Shown here: positions 44,078 to 56,387 of the stretch, one piece after another
How the letters are laid out: the number at the start of each line of letters is the position of its first letter
Numbering within the stretch: the first letter of the stretch is position 1
From: Parasedimentitalea maritima
Lineage (GTDB): Bacteria > Pseudomonadota > Alphaproteobacteria > Rhodobacterales > Rhodobacteraceae
Direction of reading: 5' to 3'
Assembly (NCBI RefSeq): GCF_005771405.1
Contig: NZ_VAUA01000004.1
Span: 186,001 to 250,000, forward strand
Length of the DNA stretch: 64,000 nucleotides
Program-made: the position numbers and the translations under genes
The notes under the pieces: model-generated
What the model saw: only the letters and a program-made list of their open reading frames with translations
Databases searched by the model: none
Told to the model about the DNA's origin: nothing

Positions 44078-44776
44078 ATGGTAAATTCTCTATTTCAACT
44101 ACCTGAAGTACCTTTGGTGCCGGTAAGAAATGAAGAGGCGGGGTACCCAGTTGCGCGAATTTTTTGCGTAGGACGAAATTATGCCGCTCATGCCGCAGAG
44201 ATGGGAGTTGAAGTAGACCGCGAGGCACCGTTCTACTTTACAAAGTCACCAGCCAACATGGTTCTAAGCGGAGCGGAGACCCCTTATCCACTTGGTACCG
44301 ACAATTTCCACTATGAAATGGAACTGGCGCTGGCCATTGGCGCGCCGTTGTTTCGTGCCACTTCCGAGCAGGCGCGCGCCGCGATTTATGGGTATGGCTG
44401 CGCATTGGACATGACCCGACGTGATTTGCAAATTCGAGAGAGGCAAAAACAACGACCGTGGGATCTCGGCAAGGATGTCGAAAACGGCACAGTTATGGCG
44501 CCGTTGACCCGCGCCAAGGAATGGGGCTCTCCTGATGCGCAGCGGATATGTCTGAACGTCAACGGCGAGATCCGTCAGGATGCGACATTGGCCGAACTGG
44601 TCTGGTCGGTCGAAGAGATCCTTTGTCATTTATCGCAGTTCTATCACCTACGCCCCGGCGATCTGGTCCTCACCGGCACTCCGGCGGGTGTTGGCCCAGT
44701 TGTCGCCGGTGATATCATTGAGGGTGGGATCGATGGGCTTGACCCTATTTCCCTTAGTTTGACGGATTTGAGATGA
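44078..44776 (+). CDS. Fumarylacetoacetate-hydrolase-family enzyme (fumarylpyruvate-hydrolase-like)
   Basis: A 232-residue FAH-fold protein. CVGRNYAAHAAEMG is the family start, FHYEMELALAIG supplies the metal-binding glutamates, and ALDMTRRDLQ the aspartate; VLTGTPAGVGPV is the late signature. Members split C-C bonds in aromatic-ring products (for example fumarylpyruvate) or decarboxylate keto acids. It lies between the opp operon and the TRAP/box genes but has no BoxR-type operator, so membership of the benzoate system is not supported. GAGG is 14 nt upstream of the ATG. Confidence 0.85.
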   Translation: MVNSLFQLPEVPLVPVRNEEAGYPVARIFCVGRNYAAHAAEMGVEVDREAPFYFTKSPANMVLSGAETPYPLGTDNFHYEMELALAIGAPLFRATSEQARAAIYGYGCALDMTRRDLQIRERQKQRPWDLGKDVENGTVMAPLTRAKEWGSPDAQRICLNVNGEIRQDATLAELVWSVEEILCHLSQFYHLRPGDLVLTGTPAGVGPVVAGDIIEGGIDGLDPISLSLTDLR

Positions 44777-44970: not shown

Positions 44971-45013
44971 GGCATTATATTGCAAACTTCAAAAATGAAG
45001 GCATTATATTGCG
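44971..45013 (+). promoter_or_regulatory. Two BoxR-type operators before the TRAP operon
   Basis: GGCATTATATTGCA at 44971-44984 and GGCATTATATTGCG at 45000-45013, 29 bp apart. Both share the pattern NGCA-N-TAT-NN-TGCN seen before the ligase, boxC and boxR genes. The second ends 26 bp before the dctP start. A BoxR/BzdR-type repressor bound here would block the promoter. Confidence 0.7.
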
Positions 45014-45039
45014 TGATAACGGTCCTAGGGAGGAATCAC

Positions 45040-46074
45040 ATGACCACTCGGAGAAAGCTACTCGGCGCCTTTGGTGCTGCAGCCATCATGGCGATGGGCG
45101 CATCATCAGCAATGGCGCAGGAAGTTACTTTGAAACTGCACCAGTTTCTGCCTGCACAGGCCAATGTGCCAAAACTGATCCTGGATGTCTGGGCGGATAA
45201 GATCGAAGAAGCGTCCGAAGGCCGCATCAAGATCGACCGTTATCCATCCATGCAGCTGGGTGGTAAGCCGCCAGAGCTGATGGATCAGGCTATTGATGGT
45301 GTTGCAGACATTGTTTGGACTGTGGTTGGCTACACACCAGGCCGCTATCCGTCGACAGAAGTGTTCGAACTTCCATTTATGATGACCGACGCCCGTGCCG
45401 TGTCGCGTGCCTATTGGGAAATGTTCGAAACCCATATGAAAGACACCGAGTTCAAGGATCTTAAAATCCTCGGTACTTGGGTTCACGGCCCTGGTATGAT
45501 CCACACTTCAGATCCGGTGGAAACACCTGATGATCTGCGTGGCATGAAAATCCGCGGTGGTTCGCGCTCGGTCAACTCACTACTGACCGAACTTGGCGCA
45601 ACGCCAGTTGGTATGCCAGTTCCTGCTGTACCTGAGGGCCTGTCCAAAGGTGTGATCGACGGTACAACTATCCCTTGGGAAGTCACCGCAGCACTGAAAG
45701 TTCCAGAACTGGTCACAAACCACACCGAATTCACTGGTAAGGCACTCTATACGCTGACTTTCGTTCTGGCGATGAACAAGCCCAAGTTTGATAGTCTGCC
45801 TGCTGATCTGCAGCAGATCATCGATGACAACTCGGGCTTGGAATTCTCAGTGTTCGCCGGTGGTACGCAGGCCGATTCTGATGGTCCTTCGCGTGAAATG
45901 GCACTGGACATGGGCAACAATGTCATCACCCTGGATGCAGAGCAAACTGCCGAATGGCGTGTGCGCGCTCAGCCTATCTATGACAAATGGCTGGCTGACA
46001 TGACTGAAAAAGGTATCGACGGTCAGGCGTTGATCGACGAAGCAACCATGCTGATCGAGAAGTACTCGAAGTAA
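45040..46074 (+). CDS. dctP: TRAP transporter substrate-binding protein (DctP family)
   Basis: A 344-residue periplasmic TRAP receptor with an RR-containing signal peptide (MTTRRKLLGAFGAAAIMAMG followed by ASSAMA). Mature start EVTLKLHQFLPAQANVPKL and a later DLRGMKIRGGSRSVNSLLTE stretch are DctP-like; the Arg that binds the substrate carboxylate is probably in the latter. AGGGAGG precedes the ATG at 45040. Its promoter region has two BoxR-type operators, so the likely substrate is benzoate or a related aromatic acid (inference). The C4-dicarboxylate role of classical DctP is therefore doubtful. Confidence 0.9.
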   Translation: MTTRRKLLGAFGAAAIMAMGASSAMAQEVTLKLHQFLPAQANVPKLILDVWADKIEEASEGRIKIDRYPSMQLGGKPPELMDQAIDGVADIVWTVVGYTPGRYPSTEVFELPFMMTDARAVSRAYWEMFETHMKDTEFKDLKILGTWVHGPGMIHTSDPVETPDDLRGMKIRGGSRSVNSLLTELGATPVGMPVPAVPEGLSKGVIDGTTIPWEVTAALKVPELVTNHTEFTGKALYTLTFVLAMNKPKFDSLPADLQQIIDDNSGLEFSVFAGGTQADSDGPSREMALDMGNNVITLDAEQTAEWRVRAQPIYDKWLADMTEKGIDGQALIDEATMLIEKYSK

Positions 46075-46092
46075 GTCTGGTACTCATCAAAG

Positions 46093-46119
46093 GGCCGCGG
46101 CGATGACTTCGCCGCGGCC
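46093..46119 (+). terminator. Hairpin between dctP and dctQ
   Basis: GGCCGCGGCGA pairs with TCGCCGCGGCC (11 bp) over a 5-nt loop, 19 bp after the dctP stop. It lies inside the operon; partial termination here would give more DctP than DctQM. Confidence 0.7.
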
Positions 46120-46149
46120 TTACTTGTGACGCGAAAGGAATGCGTAACT

Positions 46150-46734
46150 ATGCACAAGTTCATGCTAAAGCTAGCCAGGTTCATGGCTGCTACCGGTGGG
46201 TTTGTCCTCACTCTCTTGATTCTACTCACCTGCCTTTCGATTTCCGGCCGCCTGCTAAATGGATTTTTCCATGGTAATTTAATGCAGGGCATGGCGCCCG
46301 AATTTGCTGAGTGGATGATCGCGATTGGTGTTGGTCCAATCAATGGAGATTTTGAACTGGTCGAAGCAGGTGTAGCTTTTGCTATCTTCGCTTTCTTGCC
46401 GCTTTGTCAAATCACCTCAGGGCACGCATCAGTTGATATTCTGGCAAATAGTTTTTCGGCTCGCGTGAATAGATTTTTGCGCATGGTGACCGAAATTGTT
46501 TTTGCTGGAGTTTTGGTTCTCATCGCTTGGCGTCTTGAAGCTGGGATGATTAGCAAACTGAATAATGGTGAAACTTCGTTCCTACTCGAATTCCCTGTCT
46601 GGTGGGCCTATGCCGCCAGTCTGGTTGCCGCAGTGGTTGCTGCCATAGTTGGCCTATACATGGGTGCAATTCGCACCTTCGAATTTCTTACCGGCCGCAT
46701 CCTGATCTGGGACGGCGTGGAGACTGAACAGTGA
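46150..46734 (+). CDS. dctQ: TRAP transporter small permease (DctQ family)
   Basis: A 194-residue, four-TM membrane protein. The order of hydrophobic stretches and the ILANSFSARVNRFLRMVTEI segment fit the DctQ small TRAP subunit. It pairs with DctM in the inner membrane. The ATG at 46150 has AAGGA upstream; a GTG at 46126 is a less likely alternative. It overlaps dctM by 4 bp (GTGA), so they are co-translated. Confidence 0.88.
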   Translation: MHKFMLKLARFMAATGGFVLTLLILLTCLSISGRLLNGFFHGNLMQGMAPEFAEWMIAIGVGPINGDFELVEAGVAFAIFAFLPLCQITSGHASVDILANSFSARVNRFLRMVTEIVFAGVLVLIAWRLEAGMISKLNNGETSFLLEFPVWWAYAASLVAAVVAAIVGLYMGAIRTFEFLTGRILIWDGVETEQ

Positions 46735-48236
46735 CTGCTCTTGAAATCGGAATTGCCTCTTTCCCGCTCCTGATGGTGCTGATCTTTCTGCGTGTCCCCA
46801 TTGGCCTGTCGATGTTTCTTGTTGGTCTGGGTGGGCTGATGATCGTCACAGACGGTACGCTTGTGGCGTTTGGTCGCCTTAAAAACGAGACCTATTCGAC
46901 GTTTTCCTCTTATTCCCTGACCATCGTGCCGATGTTCTTGTTGATGGGGCACTTTGCGACACTCGGCGGTATGTCCAGCGCCTTGTTTAAGGCGGCTGAG
47001 GGGTTTCTTGGCCACCGCAAAGGTGGTGTCGCGATGGCAGCCATTGGTGCCTGTGCTGGTTTCGGCGCGATTTGCGGTAGTTCGCTGGCCACTGCCGCCA
47101 CTATGGGGCGCGTGGCGCTGCCGGAGCTAAAGCAATATGGTTATGCAGGCGGATTTTCAGCGGCTACTTTGGCTGCTGGCGGCACTCTTGGTATCTTGAT
47201 TCCACCCTCGGTGGTGCTGGTGATCTACGCTATTCTGACCGAGCAAAACATTGCCAAACTGTTCCTTGCGGCCTTTATTCCCGGTTTGCTGGCAGCATTC
47301 GGCTACGTGATTGTTATCTCTATTTATGTTCGCTTGTTTCCTGAATCTGCAGGAACACGACCAGCAGTTCCCTGGGGCGAACGCTTTGCGGCGCTGTTCA
47401 AGGTTTGGCCAGTGTTGATGGTGTTTGGTCTGGTCGTTGGAGGTATTTACTTGGGTTGGTTTACCCCGACCGAAGGTGCTGCGGTGGGGGCCTTTGGCAC
47501 CGGGTTGATTGCCTGGCTGAATGGCGGCCTGAATCGTGAGAGTTTGACTGATAGCTTTATGGTCACGGCTCGCTCAACTGCGATGATCTTTTTCATCGTG
47601 CTGGGTGCGGGCTTTTACAATGGTTTTCTGGCTCTAACCAAGGTGCCACAAGAACTGGCTGATTTTGTTGTCAGTCAGGGCCTTAGCCCCTGGATGGTAC
47701 TCACGCTGATCCTGGTGTTCTATTTGCTGTTTGGCTGTCTAATGGACAGTCTCAGTATGATTCTTCTGACCATCCCAATCTTCTTTCCGGTGATCTCAGC
47801 AATGGACTTTAACATGGTCTCGCTTCCTGCCATGCAGGCGAGCGCAGCAATGGAAGTGCTAAATGCCGGGGTGCCCGACGGCATGGCGGATGGTATGCTT
47901 GCCTCGATACAGGAAGCTATTGCTGGCGGAGTAGAGCTGACCCGCGACCAGATGAAAGAGCTGGGCATTCGGGTGACTGAAGGCATGGCAAACCGGATTG
48001 AGGCAGAATACGTTGCCATCTGGTTTGGTATTCTGGTTCTGATCGTGGTTGAGGTTGGCTTGATTACTCCACCAGTTGGGATGAACCTGTTCATTATCAA
48101 CGCGATGGACCGTAAGACCAAGATGATCGATACTTACAAGGCGGTGATGTTCTTTGTCGCCTCAGACTTGATCCGGGTGGTCATACTGGTGCTGTTCCCA
48201 GTCATTACGTTGCTGCCACTCATGTTGATGCACTGA
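46731..48236 (+). CDS. dctM: TRAP transporter large permease (DctM family) with an extra cytosolic/loop segment
   Basis: A 501-residue DctM-like permease. FLRVPIGLSMFLVGLGGLMI, GACAGFGAICGSSLATAATM, GGTLGILIPPSVVLVIYAIL and VGLITPPVGMNLFIINAM are family motifs. It is about 60 residues longer than usual: between the FFPVISAMDF region and AIWFGILVLIVVEV there is an inserted helical stretch (residues about 360-420, for example GVPDGMADGMLASIQEAIAG). It starts at GTG 46731 overlapping dctQ. It uses ion gradients to import what DctP binds. Confidence 0.9.
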   Translation: MTALEIGIASFPLLMVLIFLRVPIGLSMFLVGLGGLMIVTDGTLVAFGRLKNETYSTFSSYSLTIVPMFLLMGHFATLGGMSSALFKAAEGFLGHRKGGVAMAAIGACAGFGAICGSSLATAATMGRVALPELKQYGYAGGFSAATLAAGGTLGILIPPSVVLVIYAILTEQNIAKLFLAAFIPGLLAAFGYVIVISIYVRLFPESAGTRPAVPWGERFAALFKVWPVLMVFGLVVGGIYLGWFTPTEGAAVGAFGTGLIAWLNGGLNRESLTDSFMVTARSTAMIFFIVLGAGFYNGFLALTKVPQELADFVVSQGLSPWMVLTLILVFYLLFGCLMDSLSMILLTIPIFFPVISAMDFNMVSLPAMQASAAMEVLNAGVPDGMADGMLASIQEAIAGGVELTRDQMKELGIRVTEGMANRIEAEYVAIWFGILVLIVVEVGLITPPVGMNLFIINAMDRKTKMIDTYKAVMFFVASDLIRVVILVLFPVITLLPLMLMH

Positions 48237-48565
48237 CCGGATAGACTACAGTCTCCAATCCGCAATGAGTAATCGGTGATTGCACGTTGCGGATTGGTCA
48301 TGCTTTCGACTTTCTATTGGCAAGATGAACTTGGAGCGGCCCGGCTTGGTGTTTGCTCACAGCATTTATGGGCCGTTGTTTTCGACAGTTCATCAGCAGC
48401 TAAGCGTGTTCGTGTGAACTTGTGATGCATTATTATGCATGAAAATTGCGCAATATGTTGCATATCTCTGAGGCGGGTGCATTATGGCCCTTCGAATGCG
48501 TATCATCGGGGAGGGTGGTACATTGCCGGAGACTTGATCCGGCCGTCGTAGAGGGAGAATTACAA
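48237..48565. other. 329-bp gap: TRAP terminator-like hairpin and ligase promoter
   Basis: A perfect 11-bp inverted repeat CCAATCCGCAA / TTGCGGATTGG (48255-48265 and 48287-48297) lies 18 bp after dctM and may end the TRAP transcript, though no T-run follows. The rest leads into the ligase gene and contains the BoxR-type sites at 48426-48462. No coding frame is recognised. Confidence 0.6.
48426..48462 (+). promoter_or_regulatory. Two BoxR-type operators before the benzoate-CoA ligase
   Basis: TGCATTATTATGCA (48426-48439, symmetric TGCA ends) and CGCAATATGTTGCA (48449-48462), 23 bp apart, about 100-140 bp upstream of the ligase start. They match the TGCA-N-TAT-NN-TGCA pattern. Confidence 0.7.
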
Positions 48566-50119
48566 ATGACAGCCAGCTCAAATGCAGCCAGCTACTTCGT
48601 TGACCGCCACCGTCAGGAACGCCCAAACAAAATTGCCTTTCGTGAGGCTGCTGGCAAGCAGCGCAGTTTAAGTTATGGTCAGTTAGCCAAAGACAGTGAC
48701 TTGATCGCCGGGGCATTGCGTAGTGCAGGTATTGCGCGTGAAGCGCGCGTAGCCATGCTGGTGCTGGACACGATCGAGTTTCCACAGATTTTTTGGGGCG
48801 CGCTCAAGTCAGGTGTGGTACCGGTGCCCCTTAACACCCTGCTTGCAACACCGGTGTACGAAGCCATTTTGCGTGACAGTCGCGCCAGTGCTTTGTTTGT
48901 CAGTGTAGAGCTATGGCCCGTGGTAAAGGCCGCTGCGCAGATCGTACCTGAATTGAAGCAGATTGTGGTCGTAGGTGGCGAAGCACCCGATGGCACCATT
49001 GGCATGGCCGAATTCATGGCGGATGTAGACCCGTTGCAGGCGGTAACCTGCTCTGCGGATGAAACAGCGTTCTGGCTTTACTCTTCGGGTTCGACTGGAC
49101 TGCCCAAAGGCGTCAGGCACGTGCATGGGGCGCTGCGGGCTACTGCAGAGACATATGGCGCGCAAGTGCTTCAAATTCGTGAGACTGACGTGGTGTTTTC
49201 AGTCGCCAAACTATTTTTTGCCTACGGTCTGGGCAATGCAATGACATTCCCAATGGCAGTGGGCGCGACAACGATCCTGTTCCCTGACCGCCCAACGCCT
49301 GATGTGGTGTTGGATATCCTGAAAAGCGAGCAGCCAACAATATTTTGCGGTGTGCCAACACTCTATGCGGCTACATTGGCGAAACTCGAAGTGGGAGCCA
49401 AACCAGATGCGCCTCTAAGGTGCTGTATTTCAGCTGGTGAAGCGCTGCCCAAAGATGTTGGGCGAAAATGGCGAGATCTCTGGGGCGTTGATATCCTCGA
49501 TGGCGTTGGGTCCACTGAGATGCTGCATATCTTTCTCTCTAACGCACCGGGAGACGTGACCTATGGAACCTCGGGTGTTGCAGTGCCTGGATATCAGTTG
49601 CGCCTGGCAGATGAGGCCGGTGATGAGGTTGCGCAGGGCGAGATTGGTGAGTTGTTGGTACGTGGGGACTCGGCGGCAGAGGGATACTGGAACCAGCGAG
49701 ACAAAAGTCGGGCAACATTTGAGGGTGAATGGACCCGCACCGGCGATAGATACGAACGTGACGCACAGGGGCGTTACATCTACTGCGGTCGCACGGATGA
49801 TATGTTCAAGGTTTCGGGCATCTGGCTATCGCCATTTGAAGTCGAACAGGCTCTGGTCTCGCACCCATCGGTGTTGGAGGCAGCTGTTGTTGCAGTTCGC
49901 GATGGGGAAGGTCTGGAAAAACCAAAAGCACATATTGTGTTGAAGGAAGGTGATGCCAGTCCCGAGTTGGCAGCCGAGCTGAAAGCCTTTGTCAAAGAGA
50001 AGATCGGCAAGTGGAAGTACCCCCGTTGGGTAGAGTTCACGGAAGACTTACCTAAAACGGCCACAGGCAAAATCCAAAGATTCAAACTCCGCGAGAAGGA
50101 CGAAGGAGGTAGGTTGTGA
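48566..50119 (+). CDS. Benzoate-CoA ligase family protein
   Basis: A 517-residue acyl-adenylate-forming CoA ligase. The AMP-binding motif FWLYSSGSTGLPKGVRHVHG is followed by ILDGVGSTEMLHIFLSNAPG, TRTGDRYERD and the C-terminal catalytic lysine in LPKTATGKIQRFKL. The VGSTEMLHIF stretch is typical of benzoate/4-hydroxybenzoate ligases. It makes benzoyl-CoA, the entry metabolite of the box pathway encoded just downstream. The ATG at 48566 has GAGGGAG upstream. BoxR-type operators lie in its promoter region. Confidence 0.9.
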   Translation: MTASSNAASYFVDRHRQERPNKIAFREAAGKQRSLSYGQLAKDSDLIAGALRSAGIAREARVAMLVLDTIEFPQIFWGALKSGVVPVPLNTLLATPVYEAILRDSRASALFVSVELWPVVKAAAQIVPELKQIVVVGGEAPDGTIGMAEFMADVDPLQAVTCSADETAFWLYSSGSTGLPKGVRHVHGALRATAETYGAQVLQIRETDVVFSVAKLFFAYGLGNAMTFPMAVGATTILFPDRPTPDVVLDILKSEQPTIFCGVPTLYAATLAKLEVGAKPDAPLRCCISAGEALPKDVGRKWRDLWGVDILDGVGSTEMLHIFLSNAPGDVTYGTSGVAVPGYQLRLADEAGDEVAQGEIGELLVRGDSAAEGYWNQRDKSRATFEGEWTRTGDRYERDAQGRYIYCGRTDDMFKVSGIWLSPFEVEQALVSHPSVLEAAVVAVRDGEGLEKPKAHIVLKEGDASPELAAELKAFVKEKIGKWKYPRWVEFTEDLPKTATGKIQRFKLREKDEGGRL

Positions 50120-50138
50120 ACTCCAATTGTTCAATTTG

Positions 50139-50152
50139 TGCATTATATTGCG
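50139..50152 (+). promoter_or_regulatory. BoxR-type operator before boxC (distal)
   Basis: TGCATTATATTGCG, same core as the dctP sites, about 135 bp upstream of the boxC start. Confidence 0.65.
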
Positions 50153-50203
50153 CGAGTTGAGCGGAAAGCGATGTTCATCCAATCAGGTTGAGTGAAGTAA
50201 TTC

Positions 50204-50258
50204 TGCACTATCATGCATAAAATACTTTGCGAGCATCTTTGAAGTGCGATATGCTGCA
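50204..50258 (+). promoter_or_regulatory. Two BoxR-type operators before boxC (proximal)
   Basis: TGCACTATCATGCA (50204-50217) and TGCGATATGCTGCA (50245-50258), 41 bp apart, the second ending 28 bp before the boxC start. Both keep the TGC ends and the central TAT. Confidence 0.68.
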
Positions 50259-50286
50259 TTCAAGGCCGGTATAAGGAACGCGCGTG

Positions 50287-51948
50287 ATGACACAGATAAT
50301 TGACTTTCAAACTGACCCGTCAAACTACCGCCACTGGCGGGTGAGCTATGACGGTGAAGTCGCCAACCTGTTCATGGATGTAGATGAAGACGGTGGGTTG
50401 TTTGAGGGCTACCAGCTCAAGCTGAACTCTTATGATCTGGGCGTTGATATAGAGCTAGCCGATGTGGTGCAGCGGATGCGGTTCGAGCACCCGGAAATCA
50501 AAGTGGTGGTGATGCAATCGGCTAAGGAGAAAGTGTTCTGCGCTGGGGCCAACATTCGTATGTTGGGTGGTGCTAGTCATGCGCACAAGGTGAATTTCTG
50601 TAAGTTTACCAATGAAACCCGCAATACATTCGAAGCTGCCGAAGCGGATTCGGGGCAGATGTACATGGCAGCAATCAAAGGTGCCTGCGCCGGAGGTGGC
50701 TACGAACTCGCGCTTGCCTGCAATTACATCATGCTGACCAACGACAGCGCATCCTCGGTCGCTCTGCCCGAGGTGCCGTTGCTGGCGGTGTTGCCTGGCA
50801 CTGGAGGTCTGACACGGGTGACGGATAAGCGCAAAGTGCGCCGCGATCTTGCGGATGTGTTCTGCTCGATTGAAGAAGGTGTCAAAGGCCAGCGCGCGGT
50901 AGATTGGAAACTGGTCGACGAAGTGGTTGCCAATTCCAAATTTGACGCAGCGGTCACTGATCGCGCGGCAGAGCTTGCTGCGGCCAGTTCTAAGTCACCG
51001 GGTTTGACAGGCATCGAACTAACACCGCTGAACCGCCGCTTTGGTGACGATGGTTCAGTGACCTATTCTACGGTAGAGGTCGATATTGATCGTAAAAATG
51101 GTCGTGCCAATATCACCCTGAAGGGGCCTGACGGCGCTGCTCCGGCTGATATGGCCGTCTTGCAGGCGCAGGGAGCTGAAGCCTACATGTTGCGGCTGGC
51201 TCGTGAATTCGATGATGCCCTGTTGCATCTGCGATTGAACGAACGTGAAATCGGTCTGGTTGTGTTTCGCACCCAGGGCGACCGTGAAGTTTTGCTGGCC
51301 CATGAAGAACTGTTGTTGTCCAACAGTGACCACTGGCTGGCGAACGAGATCCTGAAATATTGGAAGCGGGTGTTGAAGCGGGTCGATATGACGTCTCGTT
51401 CAATGGTGGCACTGGTCGAACATGGATCGTGCTTTGCCGGAGTGTTGGCTGAACTGCTGTGGTCAGTCGACCGCAGCTACATGATGCTAGAAGAGTTCGA
51501 AGGCGACAACCGGGCTCTTGCCACCATAACTCTTAGTGAGTCGAACTTTGGTTGCTACCCAATGGGGAATGGTCTGACCCGCCTGCAAACCCGTTTCTTG
51601 GGTGATCCGGAAAACGTTGACGTGCTGAAAGGGCAAATCGGCGAGCCATTGGATGCTGACGCCTCTGATGACTGTGGTCTGATCACCTATGCCTTTGACG
51701 ACATCGACTGGGAAGACGAAGTGCGGATCTTCATGGAAGAACGTGCCAGCTTCTCGCCCGATGCGATGACAGGCATGGAGGCCAACCTGCGCTTCGCAGG
51801 TCCGGAAACCATGGAAACCCGTATCTTTGGTCGCCTCACCGCCTGGCAGAACTGGATCTTCCAGCGTCCCAACGCAGTAGGACCTGAGGGCGCGTTGCAG
51901 CGCTACGGAACAGGCAAGCGCGGCGAATACAACATGGAACGTGTCTGA
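50287..51948 (+). CDS. boxC: Benzoyl-CoA-dihydrodiol lyase (2,3-epoxybenzoyl-CoA dihydrolase)
   Basis: A 553-residue protein with an N-terminal crotonase-like domain: FCAGANIRMLGGASHAHKVN, IKGACAGGGYELALACNYIM and PLLAVLPGTGGLTRVTDKRK. The long C-terminal half is specific for BoxC. The enzyme hydrolytically opens the epoxide ring of 2,3-epoxybenzoyl-CoA to an aldehyde and formate. The ATG at 50287 is used; a GTG one codon earlier (50284) has a better-spaced AAGGA and cannot be excluded. BoxR-type operators lie upstream. It is followed by a long hairpin and boxB. Confidence 0.94.
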   Translation: MTQIIDFQTDPSNYRHWRVSYDGEVANLFMDVDEDGGLFEGYQLKLNSYDLGVDIELADVVQRMRFEHPEIKVVVMQSAKEKVFCAGANIRMLGGASHAHKVNFCKFTNETRNTFEAAEADSGQMYMAAIKGACAGGGYELALACNYIMLTNDSASSVALPEVPLLAVLPGTGGLTRVTDKRKVRRDLADVFCSIEEGVKGQRAVDWKLVDEVVANSKFDAAVTDRAAELAAASSKSPGLTGIELTPLNRRFGDDGSVTYSTVEVDIDRKNGRANITLKGPDGAAPADMAVLQAQGAEAYMLRLAREFDDALLHLRLNEREIGLVVFRTQGDREVLLAHEELLLSNSDHWLANEILKYWKRVLKRVDMTSRSMVALVEHGSCFAGVLAELLWSVDRSYMMLEEFEGDNRALATITLSESNFGCYPMGNGLTRLQTRFLGDPENVDVLKGQIGEPLDADASDDCGLITYAFDDIDWEDEVRIFMEERASFSPDAMTGMEANLRFAGPETMETRIFGRLTAWQNWIFQRPNAVGPEGALQRYGTGKRGEYNMERV

Positions 51949-51956
51949 CACACAAC

Positions 51957-52013
51957 GGTGCGTGCAAATACGCACCCAACATTGAACCCGTAGGGTGTGT
52001 GCTTGCACGCACC
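51957..52013 (+). repeat. Imperfect 21-bp inverted repeat between boxC and boxB
   Basis: Arms GGTGCGTGCAAATACGCACC plus C (51957-51977) and GGGTGTGTGCTTGCACGCAC plus C (51993-52013) pair at 18 of 21 positions over a 15-nt loop. In the mRNA this would form a long hairpin between two operon genes, probably a stabiliser or processing site, possibly balancing boxC and boxB levels. Confidence 0.75.
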
Positions 52014-52032
52014 GCCCAGTAGGAGGAATAAC

Positions 52033-53484
52033 ATGCTCGACCTGATTAATGTTAGCTATGACACTCAAATTCCAAATAACGTTGGCCTAAGCAGCGACAA
52101 AAAGGTGCTGAAGGCGCTTGAGAAATGGCATCCTGGGTACATCAACTGGTGGAACGACCTGATTCCGCAACAGTTCCAGCAGAGCATGATCTATTTGCGC
52201 ACTGCAGTTTCTGTCGATCCCAAGGGCTGGGCCAAGTTTGATTACGTAAAAATGCCAGAATACCGCTGGGGAGTGTTGCTTGCTCCACAGGTCGAAGGCC
52301 GTACTATTCCGTGTGGTGAGCATTACGGCGAACCCGCTTGGCAAGAGGTCCCAGGTGAATATCGCAATATGCTGAAGCGGATGATCGTCATTCAGGGCGA
52401 TACCGAACCGGGATCGGTTGAGCAGCAACGTTTCCTGGGCCTGACCGCACCGTCTCTCTATGACATGCGCAATTTGTTCCAGGTGAACGTCGAAGAGGGC
52501 CGCCACCTCTGGGCGATGGTCTACCTGCTGCAGAAGTATTTTGGCCGGGATGGTCGTGAAGAAGCCAACGATATGCTGATCCGGTCTTCTGGTTCCGAAG
52601 AAGCGCCACGGATGCTGGGTGCGTTTAACGAAGAAACGCCGGATTGGCTGTCTTTCTTCATGTTTACTTACTTCACCGACCGCGATGGTAAGATGCAGTT
52701 GGAGAGTCTGGCGCAATCGGGTTTTGATCCGCTCAGCCGCACCTGCCGGTTCATGCTGACCGAAGAAGCCCACCACATGTTTGTGGGTGAAACCGGGGTT
52801 GGGCGCACTATTCAGGCCACCTGTGATGCAATGAAAAAGGCCGGGATTACTGATCCATATGACATCGACAAGATCCGCGATTTGGGTGTCATCGACCTGC
52901 CCACGATCCAGAAAAAGCTAAACCTGCACTACACTCTTTCATTGGACCTGTTTGGCCAAGAAGTATCGACCAATGCGGCCAATGCTTTCAACTCAGGCAT
53001 CAAGGGCCGGTTCATGGAGCAACGGATCAAGGACGATCACAAGTTGATCAACGACAGCTATATGGTGCGTTCGATAAAAGATGGCCGGATCGTCTCAGAG
53101 GAAGTCCCAGCACTGACCGCGATCAATATGCGGTTGCGTGATGACTATGTAAAAGATGCCGCTGGCGGGGTTGGGCGCTGGAACAAATTGATCTCCAAGC
53201 TGGGGGTCGAGTTTGAGATGACCATCCCGCACGAAGGCTTTCACCGAAAGATTGGTGTCTTTGCTGCAGTTAGCATCTCGCCTGATGGCGATATCCTTCC
53301 CAAAGAAGAATGGGATGCCAAAGCAAAAGACTGGCTTCCAACCAAAGCAGATGGCGATTTCATCCAATCACTGATGAAACCCTGCATGGAACCGGGCAAA
53401 TTCGCGAGTTGGATTGCGCCGCCGAAAGTAGGCATTGATAATAAGCCCGGCGATTTTGAGTACGTACAGTTGCACATGGCCTGA
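52033..53484 (+). CDS. boxB: Benzoyl-CoA 2,3-epoxidase, oxygenase subunit BoxB
   Basis: A 483-residue diiron oxygenase. It forms 2,3-epoxybenzoyl-CoA from benzoyl-CoA and O2 with electrons from BoxA. The expected iron ligands are all visible: Glu125, Glu155 and His158 (in VEEGRHLW), Asp216, Glu245 and His248 (in TEEAHHMF). These match, with an offset of five, the ligand set I recall for Azoarcus evansii BoxB (E120, E150, H153, D211, E240, H243). AGGAGG precedes the ATG at 52033. A hairpin follows the gene. Confidence 0.95.
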   Translation: MLDLINVSYDTQIPNNVGLSSDKKVLKALEKWHPGYINWWNDLIPQQFQQSMIYLRTAVSVDPKGWAKFDYVKMPEYRWGVLLAPQVEGRTIPCGEHYGEPAWQEVPGEYRNMLKRMIVIQGDTEPGSVEQQRFLGLTAPSLYDMRNLFQVNVEEGRHLWAMVYLLQKYFGRDGREEANDMLIRSSGSEEAPRMLGAFNEETPDWLSFFMFTYFTDRDGKMQLESLAQSGFDPLSRTCRFMLTEEAHHMFVGETGVGRTIQATCDAMKKAGITDPYDIDKIRDLGVIDLPTIQKKLNLHYTLSLDLFGQEVSTNAANAFNSGIKGRFMEQRIKDDHKLINDSYMVRSIKDGRIVSEEVPALTAINMRLRDDYVKDAAGGVGRWNKLISKLGVEFEMTIPHEGFHRKIGVFAAVSISPDGDILPKEEWDAKAKDWLPTKADGDFIQSLMKPCMEPGKFASWIAPPKVGIDNKPGDFEYVQLHMA

Positions 53485-53490
53485 TGCCCA

Positions 53491-53517
53491 CAGACCCGGC
53501 GCCATTTTTGGGGCCGG
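53491..53517 (+). terminator. Hairpin after boxB
   Basis: ACCCGGC and GCCGGGT pair across an interior GCCATTTTTGG region just after the boxB stop. Only a weak T content follows, so it may be a partial terminator or mRNA-protecting hairpin inside the box operon. Confidence 0.5.
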
Positions 53518-53544
53518 GTTGTTTCACTTCACGGAGGATTCGCA

Positions 53545-53721
53545 ATGAAGATCAGCCGCACCAAAGCAGAGACGCCTAATATCAATAACCTGTCAGACCA
53601 AATTGTCGGCCTTCAAGGGCCATGTGTGGGCTGTACCAACTGCACTGGTATGTGTCAGGCATTGATTGATGCACTAACTCTACCTGATCTAATTCTGAGC
53701 AAATCCAACAGGCCCCAATGA
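53545..53721 (+). CDS. Small four-cysteine (ferredoxin-like) protein in the box operon
   Basis: A 58-residue protein not recognised as a known family. It has a clear ribosome binding site (GGAGG about 8 nt before the ATG at 53545). Its TGA overlaps the boxA ATG (ATGA), so it is translationally coupled to boxA. Residues 27-37 read CVGCTNCTGMC, giving C-x2-C-x2-C-x3-C, the spacing that binds one [4Fe-4S] cluster. No signal or TM segment is seen. A soluble electron carrier or assembly/stability partner of BoxA or BoxB is plausible, but the function is inferred from position only. Confidence 0.75.
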   Translation: MKISRTKAETPNINNLSDQIVGLQGPCVGCTNCTGMCQALIDALTLPDLILSKSNRPQ

Positions 53722-54911
53722 CCCAAGCTGTAAAGCAACACCTGATCGACCCCGAGATTTGCATCCGCTGTTATACCTGCGAGATGACATGCCCCGAAGA
53801 GGCGATCGTGCATGATGATGTCAATGTGGTTGTTGACGCATCCAAGTGTAATTTTTGCATGGATTGTATCCCGGTTTGCCCAACCGGCTCGATCGACGAA
53901 TGGCGGGTGGTCACAAGCCCTTACTCAGTTGATGATCAATTCGATTGGGAGGAAATGCCGGAACAAGCCGATATCGCCGAAGGTGGCGAAGCTGAAAGCG
54001 GCCTGGAAGCCCTGGACGATGCTATGGCAGAGCTGTTGGCCAAAGCGCACGCGGGCGCGGGCGGCAAGGCCAAAGCCCCGGCCAGTGCCTCCAAGCCCTC
54101 GATTAATATGTATAACCTTGGCAAACCGGCTACCGCACGAGTTCAGGGCAATTATCGGCTGACTGAAGAGACCAGTGATGCCGATGTCCGACATATTATT
54201 CTTGATCTTGGTGGCTTGCCATTTCCGGTTCTCGAAGGTCAAAGCATCGGGATCATTCCACCGGGTACTGATGACAACGGTCAGCCGCACTTGCCGCGCC
54301 TGTACTCAGTTTCAAGCCCTCGCGACGGTGAACGCCCGGGCTATTTGAACATTTCGCTGACGGTCAAACGGGAACCGCAGGGCGTGTGTTCAAATTACGT
54401 TTGCGATCTGGCTGCGGAGGATGAAGTTCAGCTAACTGGTCCGTTTGGATCTACCTTCCTAATGCCCAGCGATCCTCAGGCCGACATACTGATGATTTGC
54501 ACCGGCACCGGGTCAGCTCCGTTTCGCGGCTTTACTATGCGCCGACAGAGGGTCTCGCCGCAGGACAAAGACAGCATGACATTGGTATTCGGTGCCCGCC
54601 GACCGGGGGAATTGCCCTACTTTGGGCCGCTCAAGAAAATCCCAGACAGTTTTATGGCCAAGCATTTTGCATTTTCCCGTCAAGAGGATGCGCCCAAACA
54701 ATATGTGCAGGACCGCCTGCGCGAGGAAGCGGATCGGGTGGCAAAGCTGTTGCAGAACCCGAATGGGCATATCTACATTTGCGGACTAAAGGCGATGGAA
54801 CAGGGGGTCGAAGAGGCCTTGAGGGATATCGCCCGTGGTATCAATTTGAATTGGCCTGAGTTGAGAGATAGCATGCGTGACGACGGAAGATATCATGTGG
54901 AAACTTACTGA
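53718..54911 (+). CDS. boxA: Benzoyl-CoA 2,3-epoxidase, reductase subunit BoxA
   Basis: A 397-residue iron-sulfur flavoprotein. The N-terminal part holds two [4Fe-4S] sites, CIRCYTCEMTCPEEA and CNFCMDCIPVCPTGS. An Ala/Lys-rich linker (residues about 85-125) follows, then a ferredoxin-NADP-reductase-type domain with RLYSVSSPRDGER (FAD), MICTGTGSAPFRGF (NADP) and ICGLKAMEQGV. It passes NADPH electrons to BoxB. The start overlaps the small cysteine-protein gene; the thioesterase gene begins directly after its stop. Confidence 0.95.
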   Translation: MTQAVKQHLIDPEICIRCYTCEMTCPEEAIVHDDVNVVVDASKCNFCMDCIPVCPTGSIDEWRVVTSPYSVDDQFDWEEMPEQADIAEGGEAESGLEALDDAMAELLAKAHAGAGGKAKAPASASKPSINMYNLGKPATARVQGNYRLTEETSDADVRHIILDLGGLPFPVLEGQSIGIIPPGTDDNGQPHLPRLYSVSSPRDGERPGYLNISLTVKREPQGVCSNYVCDLAAEDEVQLTGPFGSTFLMPSDPQADILMICTGTGSAPFRGFTMRRQRVSPQDKDSMTLVFGARRPGELPYFGPLKKIPDSFMAKHFAFSRQEDAPKQYVQDRLREEADRVAKLLQNPNGHIYICGLKAMEQGVEEALRDIARGINLNWPELRDSMRDDGRYHVETY

Positions 54912-55358
54912 ATGACATCGCAGGAAGCATCAACAGAACCAGCTAATTTCACCCATCAAATTCGGGTTGGCTGGGGTGACTGTGACCCGGCGCAGATTGC
55001 CTATACGGGCCGGCTCCCTTGGTTTGCGCTTGAAGCAATCGACGCTTGGTGGGAGCATGTTCTAGGTGGTGATGGCTGGTTTCAGATGGAGTTGGACCGT
55101 GGAACCGGAACGCCATTTGTACACATGAGCATCGATTTTCGGTCACCGGTGACACCGCGTCATAGGCTGATCTGTGAAGTTTGGCCCTGTAAACTGGGAG
55201 GTAGCTCCATCGCGTTTCGGGTCAACGCGCGGCAGGACGGCAAGCTGTGCTTTGAGGGCAAATTTGTTTGTGTTTTCATCGCGCCCGAAACGTTCACAAC
55301 GAAGCCTGCACCGCCTGACATTCGCGATATTGTGACCCCACTCCTCCGGCCCGAGTAA
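54912..55358 (+). CDS. Hotdog-fold acyl-CoA thioesterase (box-operon type)
   Basis: A 148-residue protein of the 4-hydroxybenzoyl-CoA thioesterase family. IRVGWGDCDPAQIAYTGRLP contains the catalytic Asp of this hotdog group. A similar thioesterase is common in box clusters and is thought to release benzoate from benzoyl-CoA when CoA is trapped. Its ATG directly follows the boxA stop, so it is part of the operon. Confidence 0.88.
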   Translation: MTSQEASTEPANFTHQIRVGWGDCDPAQIAYTGRLPWFALEAIDAWWEHVLGGDGWFQMELDRGTGTPFVHMSIDFRSPVTPRHRLICEVWPCKLGGSSIAFRVNARQDGKLCFEGKFVCVFIAPETFTTKPAPPDIRDIVTPLLRPE

Positions 55359-55440
55359 CCCTGTAACCGCAAAATAATGCAGGTTCCCTGCTGTTAGGCG
55401 GGTTTCTGTTTGAACGTGCGGCTTAGTCGCTTTAGATTCG

Positions 55441-55454
55441 TGCAATATGTTACA
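55441..55454 (+). promoter_or_regulatory. BoxR-type operator overlapping the boxR start region
   Basis: TGCAATATGTTACA lies 15 bp before the boxR ATG. It fits the same pattern with one mismatch in the second TGCA. Binding here would place BoxR under its own control. Confidence 0.6.
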
Positions 55455-55469
55455 CATTTCGGCAGCCTT

Positions 55470-56387
55470 ATGAGTGAGATCACCAATTTCCGCGGCGAGA
55501 CCAGTTCGGTGTCGGATAGCGATCAAATCGACACTTCGGTATCGGCCCTAATCGCGCGGGTGGGTGAGCGGGTTCGTCGAGCGCGTGAACGCAAAGGTAT
55601 TTCCCGCCGTGTTCTGTCCGAACAATCCGGTGTGTCGCCGCGCTATCTGGCCCAGCTTGAAAGTGGTGAGGGCAATATCTCGATCGGGTTGTTACAGCGT
55701 GTGGCAATTGCGCTGGATCATCGTATTGAGTGGTTGACGGGTGAAGAGGACCCGTGGACATCGGATGCAATGCGCGTCGGTGATTTGTTTAGCAGTTCCA
55801 GCGTCGCTACTCAGCAGAAAGTGATGAGTTTGTTGTCACCTGAACCCGAGGCCAACCAGCGGGCCGGGCGGATCTGCCTAGTGGGCCTGCGCGGGGCTGG
55901 AAAATCCACTTTGGGGGCAATGGCCGGACAGGCGCTGGGGCTGCCCTTTGTCGAGCTGAACTCCGAGATCGAGGCGCAAAGCGGCATGCCGGTGGACGAG
56001 GTCATGGCGCTGTATGGGCAAGAGGGATATCGCAAGCTGGAGGCGCAAGCGATTTCACGGATTACCGCCACACATGACAGTTTGATCCTGGCCGCAGCAG
56101 GTGGTGTGGTGGGTGAACCAGAGACCTACAACAGCCTGTTGACCGGGTTTCATACCATTTGGATCAAGGCGAGCCCGGATGAACACATGTCGCGGGTCCG
56201 TGCACAGGGGGATGAACGCCCAATGGCCGGCAATCCCGAAGCGATGGAGCAGTTGCGGTCTATCCTGACCAGCCGCGAGGCGCTGTACGGCAAGGCGCTG
56301 GCGCAGCTGGATACCTCGGGGCAGGAAGTTGAAGAAACCTTGGCGGGTTTGGTTGATCTGATCCGAGATCGAGGTTTTTTAGGCTAG
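55470..56387 (+). CDS. boxR: BoxR/BzdR-family transcriptional regulator (HTH + shikimate-kinase-like domain)
   Basis: A 305-residue regulator. The N-terminal XRE-type HTH (residues about 28-90) contains GISRRVLSEQSGVSPRYLAQ and GNISIGLLQRVAIAL. The C-terminal half is shikimate-kinase-like with Walker A GLRGAGKSTLG and ELNSEIEAQSGM. In BzdR and BoxR this domain senses benzoyl-CoA rather than acting as a kinase (established for the family). The ATG at 55470 is used; no strong ribosome binding site is visible. It is the presumed regulator of the TGCA-TAT motif in this region. Confidence 0.9.
   Translation: MSEITNFRGETSSVSDSDQIDTSVSALIARVGERVRRARERKGISRRVLSEQSGVSPRYLAQLESGEGNISIGLLQRVAIALDHRIEWLTGEEDPWTSDAMRVGDLFSSSSVATQQKVMSLLSPEPEANQRAGRICLVGLRGAGKSTLGAMAGQALGLPFVELNSEIEAQSGMPVDEVMALYGQEGYRKLEAQAISRITATHDSLILAAAGGVVGEPETYNSLLTGFHTIWIKASPDEHMSRVRAQGDERPMAGNPEAMEQLRSILTSREALYGKALAQLDTSGQEVEETLAGLVDLIRDRGFLG

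Follow-up and report, generated by a model that had tools for sequence, protein, structure and literature searches.

One of the questions that this locus raises is whether a single regulator can govern four promoters of a gene cluster that holds both a TRAP transporter and an aerobic benzoyl-CoA (box) pathway. In the window, that is, the whole 64-kb stretch of DNA that was analysed, the cluster contains the following genes, whose identities are firm:

45040..46074, + strand: dctP (tarP-like), TRAP solute-binding protein (PF03480; nearest solved structure TarP_Sse, 65% identity)
46150..46734, + strand: dctQ, small TRAP membrane subunit (PF04290; ATG start chosen, open frame from 46126)
46731..48236, + strand: dctM, large TRAP membrane subunit (PF06808)
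48566..50119, + strand: bclA, benzoate-CoA ligase (TIGR02262, 744.8 bits vs cut-off 375)
50284..51948, + strand: boxC, 2,3-epoxybenzoyl-CoA dihydrolase (TIGR03222, 950 bits vs cut-off 712)
52033..53484, + strand: boxB, benzoyl-CoA 2,3-epoxidase subunit (TIGR03225, 899 bits vs cut-off 499)
53718..54911, + strand: boxA, benzoyl-CoA 2,3-epoxidase subunit (TIGR03224, 534 bits vs cut-off 459)
54912..55358, + strand: 4HBT-type thioesterase, immediately preceding boxR (PF13279)
55470..56387, + strand: boxR, XRE-type DNA-binding domain fused to a shikimate-kinase-like domain (NF006015, 380 bits vs cut-off 204)

The pathway is assigned from boxA, boxB, boxC and the benzoate-CoA ligase gene, all of which score above their curated cut-offs. 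The boxCBA genes and the ligase gene lie directly upstream of boxR, an arrangement that is shared by most of 80 relatives, and no boxD semialdehyde dehydrogenase was found among the annotated genes of the cluster. BoxR contains an HTH_3 domain (PF01381) at 35-89 and an SKI domain (PF01202) at 141-293 and is 42% identical to the regulator of an annotated box cluster in Mycetohabitans. The XRE HTH and shikimate-kinase-like domains, the box-gene neighbours and the multiple TGCA-N6-TGCA palindromes described below place it with the BoxR/BzdR regulators.

Nine palindromes and their specificity

The initial annotation listed eight sites of a 14-bp motif, and all eight 14-mers were confirmed in the 64-kb window at their coordinates. 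On the + strand they match TGCANTATNNTGCA exactly (48426 and 50204), with one mismatch (44971, 48449, 50139, 50245 and 55441) or with two (45000). A ninth site, absent from that list, lies at 55368-55381 upstream of boxR and has one mismatch to TGCANTATNNTGCA on the - strand. The predicted operators are:

44971..44984, strand.: predicted BoxR-type operator 1 of dctP, GGCATTATATTGCA (20.1 bits; position and sequence conserved in relatives)
45000..45013, strand.: predicted BoxR-type operator 2 of dctP, GGCATTATATTGCG (18.3 bits; +29 bp from operator 1)
48426..48439, strand.: predicted BoxR-type operator 1 of the benzoate-CoA ligase gene, TGCATTATTATGCA (matrix match and close pair)
48449..48462, strand.: predicted BoxR-type operator 2 of the benzoate-CoA ligase gene, CGCAATATGTTGCA (+23 bp from operator 1; close pair)
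50139..50152, strand.: predicted BoxR-type operator 1 of boxC, TGCATTATATTGCG (matrix match)
50204..50217, strand.: predicted BoxR-type operator 2 of boxC, TGCACTATCATGCA (matrix match)
50245..50258, strand.: predicted BoxR-type operator 3 of boxC, TGCGATATGCTGCA (lowest-scoring, 14.1 bits)
55368..55381, strand.: predicted BoxR-type operator 1 of boxR, CGCAAAATAATGCA (18.6 bits)
55441..55454, strand.: predicted BoxR-type operator 2 of boxR, TGCAATATGTTACA (+73 bp from operator 1)

The placement in front of dctP, the CoA ligase gene, boxC and boxR was borne out, as all nine sites lie in those four intergenic stretches (867 of 10,693 bp). The proposed consensus, TGCA-N-TAT-NN-TGCA, needed a slight correction: the nine sites are imperfect 14-bp palindromes of the form TGCA-W-TATA-W-TGCA, which is also the form found in relatives, with a symmetric centre in which TAT is part of TATA.

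When at most one mismatch is allowed on either strand, the 64-kb window contains eight matching places, every one of them among the nine sites. Allowing two mismatches adds eight scattered places and gives 27 strand matches, against a mean of 22.8 in shuffled sequences, and 25 of 100 shuffles reach 27; the specificity therefore lies in the close matches, their clustering and their position and not in the raw count. A matrix made from the nine sites scores these same sites at 14.1-20.9 bits, a match by construction, and nothing else in the window above 12.5 bits (29963). In the whole 4.85-Mb genome, 66 distinct places match with at most one mismatch, eight of them inside the cluster, and the exact GCANTATNNTGC occurs at 36 distinct places, seven of which fall within the 10.5 kb of the cluster (Poisson P ~7e-13 against the rate elsewhere, for a region pre-chosen by the earlier reader). 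Two copies of GCANNATNNTGC spaced 5-35 bp apart are found genome-wide only upstream of dctP and of the ligase gene.

It was also suggested that the pattern is not seen before unrelated genes. This holds for close matches in the window, but isolated good matches exist genome-wide: 58 places outside the cluster have at most one mismatch and 29 have the exact core, and the ten outside loci that were examined around such matches, next to the boxC promoter itself as an eleventh, included no convincing promoter site. For the two strongest of the outside matches (20.6 and 18.3 bits) the settings are a gap between the ends of convergent genes and the first part of an open frame, presumably mltG as judged by eye. 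A single palindromic match of 11.9 bits was also seen 42 bp upstream of an acyl-CoA dehydrogenase-like open frame (C5:50621, L113).

Conservation of the sites in related loci

In up to 80 related loci, counting sites of at least 8 bits within 300 bp upstream, a site was found before boxC in 71/71, boxR in 79/79 and the ligase gene in 51/69. By the same count the control genes gave 2/71 (boxB), 0/76 (boxA) and 4/62 (thioesterase), and the two genes beyond boxR gave 0/28 and 1/29. Site density is 7.1 per kb in the target promoters of these loci vs 0.19 per kb elsewhere. In 198 non-redundant promoters, and with the window matrix unused, TGCA-N6-TGCA came top of 256 x 21 palindromic patterns (95 found vs 1.9 expected from shuffles). 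Upstream of boxR, a site at about -100, near the position of operator 1 here, recurs in many relatives, and the 73-bp spacing is seen 12 times.

Among the 18 of 69 ligase promoters that have no site, 14 have one of at least 13 bits ~535-640 bp upstream of the ligase start. In L040, L061, L078 and L095 this distant site lies before or at the start of a 155-209-codon open frame that leads the ligase gene; L051 has the same arrangement, with a ligase promoter match of only 8.2 bits. We take this open frame for the candidate DUF4863 gene of Betaproteobacterial clusters. Three other site-less loci (L068, L082 and L096) end within ~400 bp of the ligase gene, and in L055 the match is 26% and hardly the ligase.

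Could the repeats be chance matches that were selected by eye? The two-mismatch count, which is not above that of shuffles, would fit such an origin, yet no close match in the window falls outside the cluster, the exact cores are concentrated in it, and a site recurs at every related boxC and boxR that was counted, which makes chance scarcely conceivable. It was rejected on the site counts in relatives, the genome clustering, the matrix-free pattern ranking, the rarity of close pairs and the co-occurrence with BoxR given below. Another hypothesis is that the repeats are TATA-like -10 promoter elements common to the cluster and not operators, as the TATA centre looks like a -10 element and the sites in the window start 29-145 bp before the start codons. 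This is very improbable: in relatives the GCA...TGC arms are about as strictly conserved as the centre, each promoter in the window has two to three copies at varying distances, and most dctP orthologues of BoxR-less genomes have no sites. A consensus promoter scan, which gave six sigma-70-like promoters vs 8.5 in shuffles and so no sign that the operators overlap the polymerase site, also found no -35/-10 pair built on the TATA centres.

The promoter of the TRAP importer

Another question is whether the sites upstream of dctP belong to the same regulon. In relatives, 27 of the 51 stretches upstream of dctP have the two sites at a spacing of exactly 29 bp; the commonest base has a mean frequency of 0.92 and 0.88 within the sites, against 0.47 between them and 0.46 and 0.51 in the flanks. 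For co-occurrence, a dctP site was counted if it had at least 12 bits within 350 bp upstream; one DctP search covered 47 genomes, with G046 (best DctP 43%) and L080 left out, and in the family searches scoring was mostly confined to the seven top first-look candidates of each genome. Such a site is present in 55 of 66 genomes that carry BoxR vs 3 of 20 without it, the genomes not being phylogenetically independent, and in 0/19 dctP paralogues. The other 11 BoxR-carrying genomes have no site of this strength within 350 bp upstream of the dctP copy that was read, and in some of them the operon may begin with a different gene or with a tandem copy. In the BoxR-less set, 17/20 have no such site despite DctP identity of up to 85%; the exceptions are G072 (13.1 bits), G049 (14.4) and G143 (17.1, genome 77% complete). 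The paired arrangement occurs in 40/46 and 7/20 genomes of the first and second BoxR sets and in 2/20 without BoxR. Searching the 20 BoxR-less genomes for BoxR down to E 1e-15 gave only shikimate-kinase-domain matches, in five of them. Since boxB is also missing in 19 of the 20, the effect of BoxR is inseparable here from that of the pathway.

One possible option is that the bclA, boxC and boxR sites are BoxR operators and that those of dctP are a similar site of some other regulator, or leftovers without effect. The three BoxR-less genomes with a dctP site would fit this option, and so would the TRAP binding-protein genes of genomes without boxB, where another control is needed; in L046 this gene adjoins genes that resemble those of the gentisate pathway. 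We consider the option unlikely, as both arms match the common palindrome, the sites are much better conserved than spacer and flanks, most BoxR-less orthologues have no site, and orthologues distant from boxR retain both (L135, L152).

A single BoxR regulon over four promoters, including that of the TRAP operon, as the initial annotation proposed, is a prediction well supported by the site conservation, the dctP footprint, the BoxR-less genomes and the paralogues.

Model of the regulon and comparison with known systems

It is very likely that the nine palindromes are operators through which the adjacent BoxR controls dctPQM, the ligase gene, boxCBA-thioesterase and boxR, and that benzoyl-CoA releases it. 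Binding, repression and release by benzoyl-CoA would follow the example of Azoarcus BoxR/BzdR. One BoxR dimer would probably occupy each palindrome, and adjacent dimers would probably cooperate. When there is no substrate, BoxR would close the four promoters; when benzoate is activated to benzoyl-CoA, release of BoxR by the thioester would let uptake, activation, ring opening and the production of further BoxR proceed together. Judging from protein similarity, the importer would take up benzoate or a related aromatic acid. It is likely that the BoxR regulon of Rhodobacterales acquired a TarPQM-type TRAP importer, typically via a conserved operator pair 29 bp apart, so that intracellular benzoyl-CoA switches on high-affinity uptake of the compound from which it is made, and that gain or loss of the operators goes together with that of boxR, even at importers unlinked to boxR.

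The predicted regulon appears real and is ordinary, with the TRAP transporter as its one probable new type of member, and the motif alone adds nothing new on BoxR. A known regulatory system is extended to marine Alphaproteobacteria, an uncharacterised TRAP transporter gains a probable substrate class and signal, and the dctP site pair can be used to predict importers of benzoate-like acids among the many Roseobacter TRAP operons.

The importer is of TarP type: a DctP-family protein with DctQ and DctM partners (PF03480, PF04290, PF06808), near a solved TarP. DctP is 65% identical by sequence match to TarP_Sse of TarPQM (PDB 7nr2/7nra), whose entry titles name the aromatic acids coumarate and cinnamate, and has the same fold (Z 28.0, rmsd 2.7, 294 residues) in a model of middling quality (mean pLDDT 65.7), which was used for reading the titles of sequence relatives' entries. 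DctP is thus a putative aromatic-acid binder and, unlike TarP, would be tied to the benzoyl-CoA pathway through BoxR-type sites.

In two studies, BoxR/BzdR operators are described as TGCA-N6-TGCA, with the consensus ATGCACTATAGTGCAT, a TATA core and a CTATAG centre (PMC6449761, PMC6678401), and those of BzdR are backed by DNase footprints (PMC6678401). The initial annotation mentioned TGCA-rich operators of the related BzdR; the fixed TAT core that it regarded as new was already published. The Betaproteobacterial system (Azoarcus PN promoter; Suvorova and Gelfand, 2019) shares with this locus the TGCA-N6-TGCA motif with a TATA centre, usually several per promoter, the location of sites at the box, ligase and regulator genes, and the two-domain regulator. 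The related promoters here are likewise enriched in TGCA-N15-TGCA, which forms part of OR1 at the Azoarcus promoter (32 found vs 2.4 expected); the inner arms of two sites 29 bp apart form this pattern, which explains 12/34 cases. In the published cases neighbouring sites mostly stand 3-5 DNA turns apart, and here the spacings are 23, 29, 41, 65 and 73 bp. At positions 5 and 10, A/T is favoured in these Alphaproteobacteria vs the published C/G. In the mostly open literature covered, including PMC6449761, PMC6678401, PMC4424350, PMC10803450 and PMC12442348, no BoxR-TRAP link was found, and the inclusion of a TRAP transporter among BoxR targets looks new. The Betaproteobacterial study describes divergent clusters and names ABC transporters and benK, whereas here boxR follows the box operon with the same orientation and the transporter is of the TRAP type.

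The palindromes of the box cluster

The window comes from a genome of 4.85 Mb and encodes a BoxR whose nearest named relative is that of Zongyanglinia huanghaiensis (98% identical). The features discussed here, in window positions, are:

44078-44776, hydrolase gene (PF01557), upstream of dctP
+ strand, genes dctPQM (TRAP transporter), benzoate-CoA ligase gene, boxC, boxB, boxA, thioesterase gene and boxR
44971 and 45000, sites before dctP
48426 and 48449, sites before the ligase gene
50139, 50204 and 50245, sites before boxC
53545-53721, + strand, 58-codon open frame that follows boxB and ends in a stop overlapping the start of boxA
55368-55381 and 55441, sites before boxR

Eight of these sites had been listed in the initial annotation, and their coordinates were confirmed exactly; the ninth, at 55368-55381, is added here, and in many relatives sites are found at a similar distance to boxR. 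All nine are imperfect 14-bp palindromes. The fixed TAT core that had been described is indeed present, but it belongs to a symmetric TATA centre, since the consensus across relatives is TGCA-W-TATA-W-TGCA.

Allowing one mismatch at most, the motif occurs at eight places in the window, every one inside the box/TRAP cluster, while with two mismatches the count is at chance level. In a matrix scan the best place beyond the nine sites reaches 12.5 bits vs. 14.1-20.9 bits for the nine, which themselves built the matrix. A genome-wide scan for the exact core GCANTATNNTGC gives 36 places, seven of them within the cluster's 10.5 kb (Poisson P ~7e-13), more than expected by chance. Pairs of relaxed cores 5-35 bp apart exist at only two places in the genome, upstream of dctP and upstream of the ligase gene. 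With up to one mismatch there are 66 places genome-wide, eight of them in the cluster; of the two best matches beyond it, one lies between convergent gene ends and the other within coding sequence.

The 58-codon frame has a GGAGG ribosome site and the cysteine pattern CxxCxxCxxxC. It is matched in 61 of 80 related loci, just upstream of boxA among the matches listed, and no Pfam or NCBIfam model scores above its cut-off. It could encode a small iron-sulphur protein belonging to the box operon.

Conservation of the sites at box genes

The same promoters were compared in 80 loci encoding BoxR relatives (the best 80 of 147) by applying the matrix from the nine sites, at a threshold of at least 8 bits, to the 300 bp preceding each gene wherever sequence sufficed. 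Sites recur, as the initial annotation had suggested checking, at boxC (71/71), boxR (79/79) and the ligase gene (51/69), and 14 of the 18 ligase promoters lacking one have a strong site 535-640 bp further upstream. Among control genes the counts were 2/71 for boxB, 0/76 for boxA, 4/62 for the thioesterase gene and 0/28 and 1/29 for the two genes past boxR. Against circularity, a matrix-free test ranked 4-mer palindromes with gaps of 0-20 against shuffled promoters, using 198 non-redundant promoters of 220 bp each and excluding the four nearest relatives. TGCA-N6-TGCA ranked first (95 found, 1.9 expected), and TGCA-N15-TGCA was likewise enriched (32 found, 2.4 expected). In the redundant promoter set, a pair of N6-type sites at a distance of 29 bp accounts for 12 of 34 TGCA-N15-TGCA cases and does not explain the remaining 22.

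Downstream of boxR, four related loci (L069, L096, L106 and L068) have BoxR-type sites upstream of an open frame, which in the first three reads like a putative fusion of enoyl-CoA hydratase and 3-hydroxyacyl-CoA dehydrogenase and in L068 like its dehydrogenase part; in L095 such a site precedes a frame of comparable length. The Betaproteobacterial study reports functions of this kind in some BoxR regulons (PMC6449761).

Sites at dctP with and without BoxR

We searched for dctP in the 47 genomes from which 47 of 48 loci come and examined its upstream DNA in 46, of which 39 have at least one site of at least 9 bits within 150 bp and 38 have two or more. Adding five further copies (51 stretches), the spacing is exactly 29 bp in 27 and 19 bp in seven. 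Across the 27, conservation is 0.92 and 0.88 in the sites vs. 0.46-0.51 in spacer and flanks, a contrast partly built in, since the matrix selected these sites. The pair is also retained by dctP orthologues distant from boxR (loci L135 and L152). In genome G260 boxR and dctP sit on different contigs (63 and 3, respectively); in genome G021, with the same dctP coordinates, boxB lies ~5 kb away and both dctP sites are kept (L152). This points to a BoxR that would act on the dctP sites in trans.

Among 295 family genomes, BoxR was found in 63 (E 1e-60) and a close DctP in 94 (E 1e-140). The DNA upstream of dctP was examined in 20 genomes that have DctP and lack BoxR, and in another 20 that have the two, picked from the DctP list by similarity order (one BoxR-less genome, G194, was skipped; the first of tandem dctP copies was used). 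By a uniform rule, which required the best-scoring place within 350 bp to reach 12 bits, BoxR-carrying genomes have a site in 41/46 (first set) and 14/20 (second set), those without BoxR in 3/20, and less similar dctP copies from the first genomes (44-65% identity) in 0/19. Fisher tests give 0.001 for 20 vs. 20 and 4e-8 for 66 vs. 20, uncorrected for relatedness among genomes. DctP orthologues of the BoxR-less genomes are up to 85% identical to that of the window. Paired sites occur in 40/46 and 7/20 with BoxR, 2/20 without it and 0/19 of the less similar copies; the pair is thus less regular in the second BoxR-carrying set.

Good dctP-promoter sites are present in two loci, L214 (genome G049, 14.4 bits) and L221 (genome G143, 17.1 bits), although no BoxR was found there. 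They may be remnants of a lost regulon, or BoxR may have been overlooked because the genome is incomplete. A laxer search of the 20 BoxR-less genomes did not find BoxR, giving shikimate-kinase-domain matches only, in five, and just one of the 20 has boxB.

The importer and comparison with known regulons

Among solved structures, DctP is closest to TarP_Sse (65% identity), whose entry titles name coumarate and cinnamate complexes; the next closest are TRAP proteins from marine metagenomes, with the title wording 'specific for aromatic acid ligands'. Based on this kinship, dctPQM likely imports benzoate or a relative. In one related locus (L046, 16865-19904) the TRAP operon is reversed and preceded by genes which, judged by eye, resemble those for an FAD monooxygenase and for a gentisate dioxygenase; an FAH-type hydrolase gene separates the two, and the dioxygenase-like gene has a single BoxR-type site (15.8 bits) upstream of it.

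In the most likely mechanism, BoxR dimers would bind at the palindromes and keep boxR and the genes for uptake, activation and ring cleavage silent until benzoyl-CoA releases the dimers; both repression and inducer are taken from studied relatives. Published work describes BoxR and BzdR as repressors that combine an XRE with a shikimate-kinase-like domain and recognise repeats of TGCA; in the footprinted Azoarcus promoter, OR2 and OR3 contain TGCA-N6-TGCA (PMC6678401). A comparison of 32 Betaproteobacteria reports the BoxR consensus ATGCACTATAGTGCAT, with sites almost always multiple and spaced mainly by 3-5 DNA turns (PMC6449761). The motif, initially thought to be new, is therefore already known. 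At a Betaproteobacterial box locus of Mycetohabitans (L243) the best site by our matrix (15.3 bits) separates boxR from the operon divergent to it; the 12.8-bit match before boxC does not rise above background at this locus, where two other places reach 12.9 bits.

The published Betaproteobacterial targets are box genes, the ligase, the regulator and ABC or benK transporters, and the word 'TRAP' is absent from the main text of that study (PMC6449761). A 4-hydroxybenzoate-induced TRAP transporter is reported to adjoin the pca genes in Roseovarius nubinhibens, in an account that does not mention BoxR (PMC12442348). Where the Betaproteobacterial regulon has ABC or benK transporters, the window's cluster has a TRAP transporter, and so far as the searched literature shows, the new part is the TRAP operon as a member of the BoxR regulon.
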